Shown here one piece after another: positions 247-5,423 of a stretch of DNA of 15,965 bases (position 1 is its first letter; the number at the start of each line of letters is the position of its first letter). Origin of the DNA: an uncultured Clostridia bacterium (GTDB taxonomy: Bacteria > Bacillota > Clostridia > Oscillospirales > CAG-272); NCBI GenBank assembly GCA_937934385.1, contig CALGZV010000134.1, forward strand, positions 1 through 15,965. The letters run 5' to 3'. The notes under the pieces were generated by a model. The model made no database searches and was not told the origin of the DNA. It worked only from the letters and a program-made list of their open reading frames with translations. Made by a program: the position numbers and the translations under genes.

Positions 247-663
247 GCTTTTTACCGCGGGATCGCTTAATTCGGAGCAATCTCTCGGATAAAGAAAGCA
301 CCGCAGCGGAATACGAGAGATTGGCGTCTCCCGTATCCGAACTCAGGGTTGGTGTGAACAACACCTAAGTCACTTCTACGGTAAAGGATATGATAACACA
401 TTTTCTCCGAATTGTCAACAGCGTTGACGGATTTCAGAGGAAATAAACGCAGCGAAACGTGAGAAGCGGCTAACTCTCGTGTCCGTGCTTGGGGTTGCCC
501 AGACAACACCCAAGCTTTACTGCGAAAAATACGGTATTATTCTCTTGAAAAATCAGCACACTCTGCTTGATTTCAGAGAAGATGAACGCGGCGAAACGTG
601 AGAAACGGCTAATTCTCGCGTCCGTGCCTGGGGTTGACGCAGACAATACCCGAGCTTTACTGC
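247..663. repeat. Three tandem copies of a structured hairpin plus three-way-junction unit
   Basis: Three imperfect copies (247-381, 401-523, 540-663; starts about 140-150 nt apart) share one predicted fold. Each has a long upstream hairpin (outer arms 247-253/292-299, 401-407/437-443, 540-545/575-580) and then a three-way junction. P1 pairs 301-306/376-381, 449-452/520-523, 588-591/660-663. P2 pairs 311-320/327-336, 457-464/475-482, 596-604/613-621. P3 pairs 341-351/359-370, 488-497/504-514, 627-636/644-654, and has the same bulged A in its 3' arm in all copies (CAACACC or CAATACC). Stem sequences differ between copies while pairing is kept (for example P2 ATACG/CGTAT against ACGTG/CGCGT). 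Copies 2 and 3 are most alike. The fold suggests RNA function or a mobile palindromic element. The strand is undetermined, and I recognise no known RNA family. Confidence 0.6.
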
Positions 664-699
664 AATAAAAATTCCGTAACGTATTAAAGTTACATATCT

Positions 700-1378: not shown

Positions 1379-2740
1379 TTAAATTTTGTTATTCGAATAT
1401 CCGTTTCCGATTATTGCGCCTTCGATACTGTCCGCAAGCTCTGAGCAAAGCTCACTGCTCTGCGCCTCAACAGTTATTCTTATCACAGGCTCGGTGCCGC
1501 TCTTACGGATAAGCAGCTTACCTTTTCCGATGAGCCTTTGCTCAGCCCGCTTCGCCGCACGCACAACTTCGGGATCGTGCAGCGCCGAGTCACGGTCGTA
1601 TGCACGCACATTTTTCGTAACCTGCGGATACATATAAAGTCCGTCGTACAGCTCAGATGCGCGTCCGCCTTTCTGTGCAAGCAGTCTTGCAAGCATTATT
1701 GCCGTAACAAGACCGTCTCCTGCCGTTTCGTATTCGGGTATTATAATGTGTCCGCAGCTCTCTCCTCCGAGACAAACTCCGCTGCGGCGCATCTCCTCGC
1801 TGACATTGCGGTCACCCACGTCGGTAAGCCGCAGAGCTATTCCTTTTTCGGCAAATGCTTCTCTCAGTCCGATGTTCGACATTACCGTCGAAACGACGGT
1901 ATCTCCCGCAAGCTTTCCGCGCTCCTTCATATCGCAGCCGAGAATATACAGTATATGATCTCCGGTAATAATGCCGCCGTTTTCATCAACAGCGATGCAC
2001 CTGTCCGCATCTCCGTCAAATGCAAAACCGATATCAAGATGTTTTTCACGTACAAATTCCGAAAGCGTCTGCGGCGAAGTTGAACCGCATTTCCGATTGA
2101 TATTGAAACCGTCCGGCGAATTTTCTATAGCGAATGTCTTTGCGCCGATAGCTTCAAATATTTCCTCTGCCATTCCCGACGCACTTCCGTTTGCAGTGTC
2201 GAGTCCTACTTTCAGCCCGCCGACGCCGTCTCCGCCAAGTCCGATCAGATGCTTTATATATTCCTGACACCCGGCTTCATAGTCAACGGCTACACCGATA
2301 TCGCCGCGCATTGCCGGAGAAAACACATCCGTCATTCCGTCCATTCCGTCGAGATACATTTCCGCACCTGCGACTGTTTCATCTCCGGTCTTTCCGCCGA
2401 TTCCGTCTATCAGCTTTATACCGTTATCGTAAAACGGATTATGGCTCGCCGATATCATTATCCCGCAGTCAAAGCCGCCGCTGCATACGGCATACGACAC
2501 CGACGGAGTTGTCGTCACATGCATAAGATAAGCGTCCGCGCCGACTGACATAAGTCCTGCGGCAAGCGCATATTCAAGCATAAAACCGGACCACCGTGTG
2601 TCCTTTCCTATCACAGCGCGGCAGCGATGCTCTTTTCCGAAGCAGATACCGAGATACCGTCCGATCTTAAATGCATGCTCTGCCGTAAGTTCCGTTCCGG
2701 CCTCACCGCGGAAGCCGTCTGTTCCGAAATATTTTCCCAT
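1379..2740 (-). CDS. glmM: Phosphoglucosamine mutase
   Basis: Converts glucosamine-6-phosphate to glucosamine-1-phosphate in the cytoplasm, on the route to UDP-GlcNAc for peptidoglycan. The 453-residue length is normal for the family. Visible motifs in order: KYFGTDGFRG at the N-terminus; SASHNP with the phosphorylatable serine at Ser99; the Mg2+ loop DGDADR (242-247); the sugar-binding GGESCGH (325-331), where the family more often has GEQSGH; and the phosphate-binding RKSGTEP (412-418). The start is supported by AGGA seven bases upstream of the ATG. It lies 18 nt behind the natural end of glmS (2759) on the same strand, so the two are probably co-transcribed. The gene itself appears intact. 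Confidence 0.95.
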   Translation of the reverse strand: MGKYFGTDGFRGEAGTELTAEHAFKIGRYLGICFGKEHRCRAVIGKDTRWSGFMLEYALAAGLMSVGADAYLMHVTTTPSVSYAVCSGGFDCGIMISASHNPFYDNGIKLIDGIGGKTGDETVAGAEMYLDGMDGMTDVFSPAMRGDIGVAVDYEAGCQEYIKHLIGLGGDGVGGLKVGLDTANGSASGMAEEIFEAIGAKTFAIENSPDGFNINRKCGSTSPQTLSEFVREKHLDIGFAFDGDADRCIAVDENGGIITGDHILYILGCDMKERGKLAGDTVVSTVMSNIGLREAFAEKGIALRLTDVGDRNVSEEMRRSGVCLGGESCGHIIIPEYETAGDGLVTAIMLARLLAQKGGRASELYDGLYMYPQVTKNVRAYDRDSALHDPEVVRAAKRAEQRLIGKGKLLIRKSGTEPVIRITVEAQSSELCSELADSIEGAIIGNGYSNNKI

Positions 2741-3326
2741 AAGCTGTCCTTTCTCCGCTCACTCCACGGTAACTGATTTCGCAAGATTTCTCGGCTTGTC
2801 GATATCGCGGCCAGCCAAGATACAGCGCTGTACGGTATGCGATAAGCTGCGCCGCCGTCGCAGCAGGCATCGGCATGAAAAGCTCGCTTACCTGCGGAAG
2901 CCTTATAATGCTGTCGGCTGCATTTTCAGGAACTTTGATATTTTCACTGCACAGAAGAGTGACACGTGCGCCGCGGCACCTGACTTCGTCGATACTGCTC
3001 AGCATTTTATCGCAGAGACTCTCCTGCGTCAGAAATGCAAAAACAGGAGTTCCGTCGCTTATAAGAGATATTGTCCCGTGCTTCAGTTCGCCTGCCGCAT
3101 AAGCCTCGCAGTGTATATACGATATTTCTTTGAGCTTAAGCGCCGACTCAGCGCATATTGCATAGTCCGCGCCGCGCCCTATAAAAAATATGCTTTCCGC
3201 TCCGCTGATGCTCCGCGCAGCTTCTGTGCATATGCCGTCAAGCTCAAGCGCCCGCGCTATCGCCTCCGGTACTCTACTTTCAAGCTCAGCCGCAAAGCTT
3301 CTTATCCGGAACGCTTCCGCGCACAT
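2703..3326 (-). CDS. glmS: GlmS C-terminal fragment (second SIS domain)
   Basis: This is the continuation of glmS in a different frame, overlapping the N-terminal piece. The conserved block FIGRGADYAICAESALKLKE and the following EAYAAGELKHG are typical of the second SIS domain of GlmS. The ATG chosen (3324-3326) is only the first available in this frame, and there is no reason to think translation truly starts there. Past 2817 the frame leaves the GlmS sequence and runs on, out of register, into the start of glmM. The last 20 or more residues are therefore an artefact of the second frame break. Confidence 0.5.
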   Translation of the reverse strand: MCAEAFRIRSFAAELESRVPEAIARALELDGICTEAARSISGAESIFFIGRGADYAICAESALKLKEISYIHCEAYAAGELKHGTISLISDGTPVFAFLTQESLCDKMLSSIDEVRCRGARVTLLCSENIKVPENAADSIIRLPQVSELFMPMPAATAAQLIAYRTALYLGWPRYRQAEKSCEISYRGVSGERTAYGKIFRNRRLPR

Positions 3327-4587
3327 GTGCGAGCCTGAGAGAAAGCAGATAAAGCGCGGCAAGCTGAACTTCGTATGCCTTTGTACTTGCTACGGCGATC
3401 TCCGGACCTGCAAGAGTGTATATAACACAGTCCGCCTCCGTCGCAATGACCGAGCCGGGAACATTGACGACCGCAAGGATATACGCTCCGCGCGATTTTG
3501 CAAGCCGCATAGCGGCGACGGTATCGGCAGTCTCGCCCGACTGCGATATAACGACGGCAAGCTCATTTTTTCCGATTATCGGCTCGCGGCATCGGAATTC
3601 GGAGGCGATCTCCACACTGACAGGAACACGTGCAAGCCGTTCTATCGCGTATTTTCCCACAAGTCCCGCATGCATGGCGGTTCCGCAGCCTATCATGTAA
3701 ATATGCTCAAACGACGCAAGCCGCATGTCGGTAAGTACGTTCCCGCCTATGCACGGAAGTCCTCTGCGCACAGCTCCGCTGACGGTTCGCATGACCGCCT
3801 GCGGCTCCTCATGTATCTCTTTGAGCATGAAATGCGGATATCCGCATTTACTCACCGCTTCCGCAGTAATTACCGATCGCTCAGGCGTTTTTTCGACATT
3901 TTCTCCGCTTTCCGAATAAAAGTTTATCCCGTCACGAGAAACAACCGCAAGCTCGCCGTCTGCAAGGCGGTAAAACTCATCTGCATGCCCGGCTACAGCC
4001 GACATATCAGACATTATATAGTTGCCGTCCGCGCCGCATGCAGCTATAAGCGGACTCTCACGTTTAAGTGCATATATCTCTCCCGGGCGGTCTGCAAACA
4101 CCGCGCCGATAGCATAAGAGCCGCGAAGTTGCTCCGCGGTGCGCCTCAGCGCAAGTATCGGATCGTGCGTTTCCGAATAAAAAAGATCGGTCAGCTTTGC
4201 CGCCGCTTCGGTATCGGTCTGCGAGTAAAAATCATAGCCCTTGTCTTTCAGCATTCCGCGAAGCTCTGCGAAATTGCCGATTATCCCGTTGTGAACGATT
4301 TGAACCGCACATGTCCCGTGCGGATGCGCGTTTGTATCGTTCGGAGCGCCGTGCGTCGCCCAGCGCGTATGACCGACACCGCAGCCGGAAACGAGCGTAT
4401 CAGACAGCTCCCCGATCCTTTCTTTAAGTGCGTCAAGCCGCCCTGCGGCTTTCCCCGTTTTCAGCCCCCCGCCGTCGAAAACGGCGATTCCCGCCGAGTC
4501 GTATCCCCTGTATTCAAGCGACGAAAGTCCCTCAAGTATCCGCTGCACCGCGTCCGCCGTGCCTGTATATCCTATAATTCCGCACAC
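2759..4587 (-). pseudogene. glmS: Glutamine-fructose-6-phosphate aminotransferase, disrupted by two frameshifts
   Basis: Makes glucosamine-6-phosphate from fructose-6-phosphate and glutamine. The coding sequence is split across three frames. The glutaminase domain and first SIS domain run in one frame to a TGA at 3286-3288. The second SIS domain continues in a frame entered near the T run at 3294-3296 (one base too many, or two missing). The C-terminal tail DIDKPRNLAKSVTVE and its TGA lie in a third frame, entered at a tandem GCCAGCCA (2810-2817) that looks like a 4-bp duplication. Removing 1+4 bases gives 607 residues, matching the family length of about 610. The tail holds the lysine of AKSVTVE that contacts the sugar in the family. 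The start is the GTG at 4585-4587, which places the catalytic cysteine at residue 2. Sequencing or assembly error is a real alternative, since the gene is normally essential and its neighbours are intact. Confidence 0.85.
3286..4587 (-). CDS. glmS: GlmS N-terminal fragment (glutaminase plus first SIS domain)
   Basis: This 433-residue open part of glmS begins MCGIIGYTG, with Cys2 as the nucleophile of the class II glutaminase. Glutamine-site residues are visible: HTRWATHG (Arg75, Trp76), HNGIIGNF (Asn100, Gly101) and QTDTE (Asp125). The first sugar-isomerase domain follows with SQSGETADT and EIAVASTKAY. An upstream in-frame GTG at 4594-4596 would add three residues before the cysteine, which the mechanism does not tolerate, and AAAGG (ending 4600) is too close to it. 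The AAAGG suits the GTG at 4585-4587 better. If expressed alone this piece might hydrolyse glutamine, but it lacks half of the synthase domain. Confidence 0.7.
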   Translation of the reverse strand: MCGIIGYTGTADAVQRILEGLSSLEYRGYDSAGIAVFDGGGLKTGKAAGRLDALKERIGELSDTLVSGCGVGHTRWATHGAPNDTNAHPHGTCAVQIVHNGIIGNFAELRGMLKDKGYDFYSQTDTEAAAKLTDLFYSETHDPILALRRTAEQLRGSYAIGAVFADRPGEIYALKRESPLIAACGADGNYIMSDMSAVAGHADEFYRLADGELAVVSRDGINFYSESGENVEKTPERSVITAEAVSKCGYPHFMLKEIHEEPQAVMRTVSGAVRRGLPCIGGNVLTDMRLASFEHIYMIGCGTAMHAGLVGKYAIERLARVPVSVEIASEFRCREPIIGKNELAVVISQSGETADTVAAMRLAKSRGAYILAVVNVPGSVIATEADCVIYTLAGPEIAVASTKAYEVQLAALYLLSLRLAHVRGSVPDKKLCG

Positions 4588-4721
4588 ATGTATCACACGC
4601 CTTTCCGAATTTTTCTGTACAGCGGACAGTACCCCTGCCGTCCGCTTATTTTCTTCTATCCTGTACCGCCCGCGGCGCTTCAGTCAGACTGATTTTCCCG
4701 ACAATATGCCGGATAAAGCAA

Positions 4722-5423
4722 TTATCTGACAATATCGCCGCCGCGCGGCTTTTTATCCGCACCGTCCCGCCCGGACGGCCGCTTCGCCGCTATATCATCC
4801 GCAGACTTAAATATACAGCTGTCCGGAATATATCCTCTGACGAGCGAGAGCGGATATACCGTGCAGTTTTTCCCGATAACAGCGCCGGGGCAAAGCACGC
4901 TTCCGCAGCCTATCTCGCTGCCGTCTCCGACTGCCGCACCGAACTTACGCCGTCCGGTTCCGATCCTGCTGCCGAGCGACGCGACGGTTACCTCTGTTTT
5001 GTCGCATTTGACATTCGATGTGACCGCGCCTGCGCCGAGATGCACCTTGTAACCGAGAACGGAATCACCGACATAGTTATAATGCGGAATCTGCACACAG
5101 TCAAAAAGAATACTGTTTTTAACCTCTGTCGAATTACCTACGACGCACTCATTTCCGATTACCGCGTTTCCTCTTATATAAGCGCAATGGCGTATCTCGG
5201 AATACTCTCCGATAATACACGGCGCGGATATAGACGCCGTCGCGGCGATGCGCGCGCTTTTAGCCGCCCATACTCCGTCCGCTATCTGCAAAAAACCGCA
5301 CACCGAGGCAAGCTCCGGTATAAGTCCGCCGATACCGTCAAGCGCCTGCCACGGATACTTGTACATTTCAAGATACCGCGCCGCCGCGGTATGACTGAGA
5401 TCAAAAAGCTCTGATATTTTCAT
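4722..5423 (-). CDS. Left-handed beta-helix acyltransferase, GlmU C-terminal-like
   Basis: A 233-residue protein with a short N-terminal segment (about 1-45, containing LFDLSHTAAARYLE and YPWQAL) and then hexapeptide repeats (about 50-200) that form a left-handed beta-helix. Residues IPHYNYVGDS (112-121) and LGAGAVTSN (129-137) align with the acetyltransferase part of GlmU (HLTYLGD, IGAGTITCN), placing His114 at the GlmU catalytic histidine. Proteins like this are often annotated UDP-N-acetylglucosamine pyrophosphorylase, yet no nucleotidyltransferase domain is present. First gene of an operon with glmS and glmM, so acetylation of glucosamine-1-phosphate is a reasonable inference. Another sugar acyltransferase is possible. 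GGGGA lies about 8 nt before the ATG. The C-terminal tail is polar and probably disordered. Confidence 0.8.
   Translation of the reverse strand: MKISELFDLSHTAAARYLEMYKYPWQALDGIGGLIPELASVCGFLQIADGVWAAKSARIAATASISAPCIIGEYSEIRHCAYIRGNAVIGNECVVGNSTEVKNSILFDCVQIPHYNYVGDSVLGYKVHLGAGAVTSNVKCDKTEVTVASLGSRIGTGRRKFGAAVGDGSEIGCGSVLCPGAVIGKNCTVYPLSLVRGYIPDSCIFKSADDIAAKRPSGRDGADKKPRGGDIVR

Follow-up and report, generated by a model that had tools for sequence, protein, structure and literature searches.

Related small RNA units repeated at one locus are a general type, the tandem paralogous small RNAs. GlmY and GlmZ of enterobacteria are small structured RNAs that stand alone. Two other kinds of folded element follow recognizable rules: in the attC sites of integrons the 5′ arm ends in AAC and the 3′ arm starts with GTT, with an integrase or cassettes adjoining, and T-box leaders, which precede aminoacyl-tRNA or amino-acid genes, carry the UGGNACCGCG T-box together with a stem I.

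Candidate structured RNAs have been predicted in human metagenomes, in the form of 3161 intergenic models (PMC8040213). They resemble the element described here in being bacterial RNAs supported by covariation and without known function, and our element may be among these models, the comparison being one of text only. No description of the element was found in the literature searched, which included passages of that article.

The window, that is, the whole stretch of 15,965 nt analysed here (contig CALGZV010000134.1 of an uncultured Clostridia bacterium), holds three related units at positions 247–664: unit 1 at 247–381, unit 2 at 404–524 and unit 3 at about 550–664. An earlier note, made from the sequence alone, had pointed out this array, and its presence is confirmed here. 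Our favoured reading, which we consider probable (roughly 0.7), takes unit 1 as a stand-alone gene for a small structured RNA, encoded on the minus strand, with units 2 and 3 as its tandem duplicates. Repetition is what the locus has in common with the tandem paralogous small RNAs, but only one of the three units has a recognizable promoter. With GlmY and GlmZ it would share the stand-alone structured form, and its strand also carries glmS and glmM further upstream; it differs from them in having no Rfam match, and its glm link is one of position in this window only.

The note had recognized no known riboswitch, ribozyme or small RNA, and a comparison with Rfam, which it had itself proposed, agrees. 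Rfam 15 gave no family at the gathering cut-off over the whole window, five sub-threshold matches up to E 5 over 1–1378, none of which overlaps 247–663, and no match up to E 10 over 150–430. The junction sequences do not fit those of 5S rRNA or the hammerhead, and there is no Rfam match to either. A T-box leader was likewise rejected: the plus strand shows TTTTTACCGCGG without the UGGN part, again with no Rfam match. As to attC sites, P3 has GTTG in its 5′ arm and CAAC in its 3′ arm on both strands, against the rule; attC polarity is seen only in the unit 2 hairpin and is not common to units 1 and 3.

Layout and folding of the units

Each unit consists of a hairpin (P0) and a three-way junction (P1, P2 and P3), as had been proposed, and the common bulged base in P3 is present in all three, as A on the plus strand and U on the minus strand. 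Read on the minus strand, the junction comes first and P0 follows. The features of the locus and its neighbours are as follows:

301–381, minus strand: unit 1 three-way junction, P1 376–381/301–306
364–370 and 359–362 with 348–351 and 341–347, minus strand: unit 1 P3, bulged base 363
327–336/311–320, minus strand: unit 1 P2, with covariation in relatives
247–299, minus strand: unit 1 hairpin P0, 3′ of the junction on this strand
413–418, minus strand: −35 box TTGACA of the unit 1 promoter-like sequence, inside the unit 2 hairpin
390–395, minus strand: −10 box TATCAT with an upstream TG (extended −10); unit 1 P1 starts 9 nt downstream
448–524, minus strand: unit 2 three-way junction, P1 520–524/448–452, without a recognized promoter
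404–440, minus strand: unit 2 hairpin P0, which overlaps the promoter-like sequence of unit 1
587–664, minus strand: unit 3 three-way junction, P1 660–664/587–591, partly mismatched, without a recognized promoter
550–573, minus strand: unit 3 hairpin P0
160–234, plus strand: end of a probable coding frame, stop codon TAA at 232–234, converging on the putative RNA gene
Minus-strand neighbours: glmM, split glmS and an acetyltransferase-like gene (4722–5423; below curated cut-offs)
Plus-strand neighbours: fabK, fabD, fabG, fabF and an acyl-CoA ligase-like gene (below cut-off)

The stems named in the earlier note all exist, with one reservation: P1 of unit 1 (CCGCAG/CTACGG) holds a C-A mismatch on the plus strand, which on the minus strand is a G-U pair. 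P3 of unit 1 likewise has a plus-strand C-A mismatch that reads as G-U on the minus strand. Counted on the minus strand, the 30 listed pairs of unit 1 comprise 27 Watson-Crick and three G-U pairs without any mismatch, the 27 of unit 2 comprise 24 Watson-Crick, one G-U and two A-C, and the 28 of unit 3 comprise 21 Watson-Crick, three G-U and four A-C; on the plus strand, the A-C mismatches of units 2 and 3 become G-U pairs.

Units 2 and 3 closely resemble each other, and unit 1 is diverged yet related. Direct repeats link units 2 and 3 only (88% identity over 68 nt and 79% over 42 nt). The junctions of units 1 and 2 align with a local score of 41, a value reached by none of 1000 shuffles (mean 15.1, maximum 35), while the score of 24 between units 1 and 3 is weak (shuffle maximum 31; 24 reached by 13 of 1000).

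Compared with shuffled sequences, unit 1 folds with a z of −3.44 on the plus strand and −5.58 on the minus strand, and unit 2 with −2.09 and −3.39, respectively. Unit 3 (z of −1.16 on the plus strand, with 22 of 200 shuffles as good, and 0.02 on the minus strand, with 93 of 200) is not clearly better folded than shuffles on either strand, and folding energy therefore gives it no support; its proposed fold differs from its minimum-energy folds. Long-range pairing between UUUACCG at the 5′ end and CGGUAAA was considered and dropped: it fits the window and is broken in relatives in which the peptide at this place is N-R-R or D-R-R (compared by hand).

The units sit between the end of glmM (1379) and the plus-strand frame that ends at 234. 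A terminator-like hairpin with a T-run lies at 1186–1211 on the plus strand, and no plus-strand ORF of at least 80 aa is seen between 664 and 1186. Further along, glmS is split over two overlapping minus-strand frames in 2703–4596, with the N-terminal part in 3286–4596 and the C-terminal part in 2703–3362, either through a frameshift in the genome or through an assembly error. The acetyltransferase-like protein agrees with a probable clostridial origin: among the best 120 of its 7982 relatives, five bear an organism name, four of them 'Clostridia bacterium' and one Anaeromassilibacillus.

Relatives read from spurious reading frames

Relatives of the element were recovered as spurious metagenomic ORFs that overlap it. 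The minus-strand translation of 270–536 matched seven short unnamed metagenomic proteins, and a profile search with those seven and the window gave 23 protein clusters (E 3e-63 to 0.018), the seven being included by construction. Since the matched ORFs use different frames of the same DNA, both at P2 and further on, the conservation is not that of a protein; to judge from the sequences, the 23 clusters are ghosts of noncoding DNA. These relatives are known only as translations. They were back-translated to ambiguity codes, which leave many third codon positions open, and only forced incompatibilities were counted.

Searches of nucleotide collections gave no further copy. A single genome scan, whose pattern was built on units 2 and 3, required the exact junction sequence and misses diverged copies. 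It found no genuine copy: the six matches (Planctomycetaceae, Rhizobium, Saprospiraceae, Polaromonas, Chloroflexi and Magnetococcales) all lack the second P3 arm downstream and were taken as chance. A search of the Chloroflexi-titled genome and 20 of its relatives gave nothing, a negative that carries no weight. Among eight scans of viral contigs, three gave one, six and eight matches and five gave none; none of the 15 surroundings shows the unit by eye.

The note had argued from stems that differ in sequence and stay paired that the structure is under selection. Three copies alone cannot prove covariation, and support for it therefore comes from the relatives. P2 is covered by 21 of the 23 ghosts (P0126 and P0133 end before it), which with the window makes 22 segments and 16 distinct helices, 15 from ORFs and one from the window. 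For each frame, conserved anchors served to place the arm ends once the pairing had been noticed by eye. Not one of the 144 pairs (16 helices of nine pairs) is forced to be incompatible, as against 238 of 2160 when arms are swapped between different helices. Over 5000 arm-swap permutations the mean number of incompatible pairs was 14.9 (sd 2.7) and none was as low as zero, a count that is not a probability, as the helices are not independent (P0124 is close to the window, P0131 to P0138) and the test is not phylogeny-aware; with related helices among those swapped, the control is milder rather than harsher. The support for selection on RNA structure now goes beyond the earlier evidence, and the covariation that the note wished to see checked in homologues is found in P2.

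Copies resembling unit 2 in P0123 and P0128 have a compatible P2 across the eight pairs tested, and the P2 of P0121-type upstream copies fits only in a shifted register (by hand, unscored). P1 and P3 vary hardly at all in the relatives and so speak neither for nor against those stems. The 3′ arm of unit 1 P0 (CGATCCCGCGGTAAAA) also appears nearly constant, by eye, in the relatives that cover P0; P0129 appears to break one P0 pair (by hand).

The relatives also bear on a second proposal of the note, that of a palindromic mobile repeat. We take this to mean a MITE- or REP-like element inserted at many sites and not selected as RNA, of which one would expect scattered copies whose flanks are unrelated on either side. 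The palindromic form agrees with this, as do the sequences upstream of the element, which differ among relatives: by eye, six unlike groups of upstream peptides are seen among the 16 relatives long enough to include the −35 box. Downstream, 10 of the 12 ghosts that run past the element clearly have the flank of the window; P0139 is short but consistent, and P0142 sits in a different flank, as a mobile repeat might. The flank common to 10 of 12 places the element mostly at one locus, convergent with the plus-strand gene, and this, together with the compensatory change in P2 and the constant promoter spacing described below, stands against mobility. So do the phage and plasmid collections: blastn of 404–666 gave no match at E 0.01, and blastn of 90–670 at E 10 gave eight plasmid and seven phage records with pieces of 24–45 nt at E 0.2 or more, none of them meaningful. 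We consider a mobile repeat very unlikely.

By eye, P0140 appears to carry a minus-strand stretch like 690–850 upstream of a single unit, which suggests the same locus with one copy.

Strand and promoter

The note had described the RNA on the plus strand. The better minus-strand folds of units 1 and 2, the G-U bias in P2 and a promoter-like sequence all point the other way, and the conserved RNA most likely lies on the minus strand. In six of the 16 P2 helices there is one forced G-U pair each on the minus strand, and forced A-C pairs occur in none; the independent events behind the six may number about four. Units 2 and 3 of the window go against the minus-strand reading, with six A-C and four G-U pairs between them on that strand.

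Upstream of unit 1, minus-strand positions 418–390 read TTGACA-17-TATCAT, which agrees with the consensus at 11 of the 12 positions of both boxes. Four promoter-like sites were found where 2.8 are expected, so that the match alone is weak; the relatives add to it. All 16 that reach the −35 box are compatible with TTGAC at the same spacing, the code leaving two of the five positions open (TNGAY), and 18 of 21 anchored relatives are compatible with TATNAT at −10, conservation that is partly built in, as the relatives were retrieved by similarity covering this stretch (P2 is much less affected). P0139, P0142 and P0143 do not fit at −10 in this register; P0135 and P0140 have no anchor and fall outside the count. 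On sequence grounds, the site is what an independent small RNA gene would be expected to carry. For units 2 and 3, neither the promoter listing nor inspection by eye gave a minus-strand promoter, and no minus-strand terminator was found after unit 1. The free-standing array of three RNAs that the note had entertained finds no support in the promoter-like sequences, as units 2 and 3 have none that was recognized; a complete gene is suggested by unit 1 only.

The promoter-like sequence just upstream, and a compact three-way junction with constant segments, would also suit a cis-regulatory element (a riboswitch, an attenuator or a T-box-like leader) for the next minus-strand gene. The minus strand downstream is, however, antisense to a plus-strand frame that probably codes for protein; the sole minus-strand ORF of at least 80 aa there (53–364) starts inside the element, and its frame is lost in several relatives. 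Rfam gave no riboswitch or T-box match, and we hold this reading to be highly improbable.

The plus-strand frame ending at 234 seems to be coding. Forced differences among the ghosts fall at 5, 1 and 9 sites of codon positions 1, 2 and 3, or at 2, 0 and 6 once doubtful sites are dropped that rest on one ghost in a distrusted stretch of alignment (P0124: 166, 169, 172; P0131: 198, 204; P0140: 209, 222), position 2 being less visible with 15 informative sites vs 25 and 25. The frame (1–231) matched no NCBIfam family, and the window lacks 23–24 nt of it that are found in all eight relatives with a placed insertion. A hairpin at 115–153 (CCGGGCAGATGTG ... CACATCTGTCCGG) with a T-rich plus-strand stretch behind it occurs also in the relatives that reach there, with small changes of length, inside or beside the frame.

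The element starts 12 nt past the stop codon of this frame, and in most relatives that extend so far the same frame precedes it. It might then be the structured 3′ UTR of the plus-strand gene, a transcript stabilizer or regulatory tail; the plus strand gives unit 3 its better fold, and there units 2 and 3 together have six G-U and four A-C pairs. Against this, the 16 P2 helices, read on the minus strand, include six pairs forced to be G-U and none forced to be A-C, P1 and P3 of unit 1 have their C-A mismatches on the plus strand, and it is on the minus strand that the relatives keep the promoter-like sequence. A 3′ UTR is, in our view, unlikely.

Proposed working of the RNA and its meaning

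If unit 1 is a small RNA gene, as we favour, a promoter of the sigma-A type would start minus-strand transcription at about 383. The RNA would fold into the three-way junction (P1, P3 with the bulged U, and P2) and then the hairpin P0, and would end tail to tail with the plus-strand gene. P2 would be a strut in which any sequence is allowed provided that pairing holds. The likely contact surface is, as a guess, formed by two nearly constant parts, the bulged P3 stem and the 3′ arm of P0. The partner would most probably be a protein or a target RNA, on which the RNA would act in trans. Units 2 and 3, with no recognizable promoter of their own, may be partly decayed, or may be expressed only through read-through.

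A further proposal, which we put forward as quite doubtful, is that the element represents a new class of small structured RNA of Clostridia. As a regulator it would bind a protein or respond to amino sugars, and tandem duplication of the unit, at one chromosomal locus downstream of glmS-glmM, would tune its dose. In more general terms, spurious database ORFs, once back-translated, can serve to test the covariation, promoter conservation and strand of an RNA where no homologous DNA is to hand. We know of little small-RNA work in this lineage, to which the locus adds a putative, covariation-supported small RNA without any match in Rfam 15.
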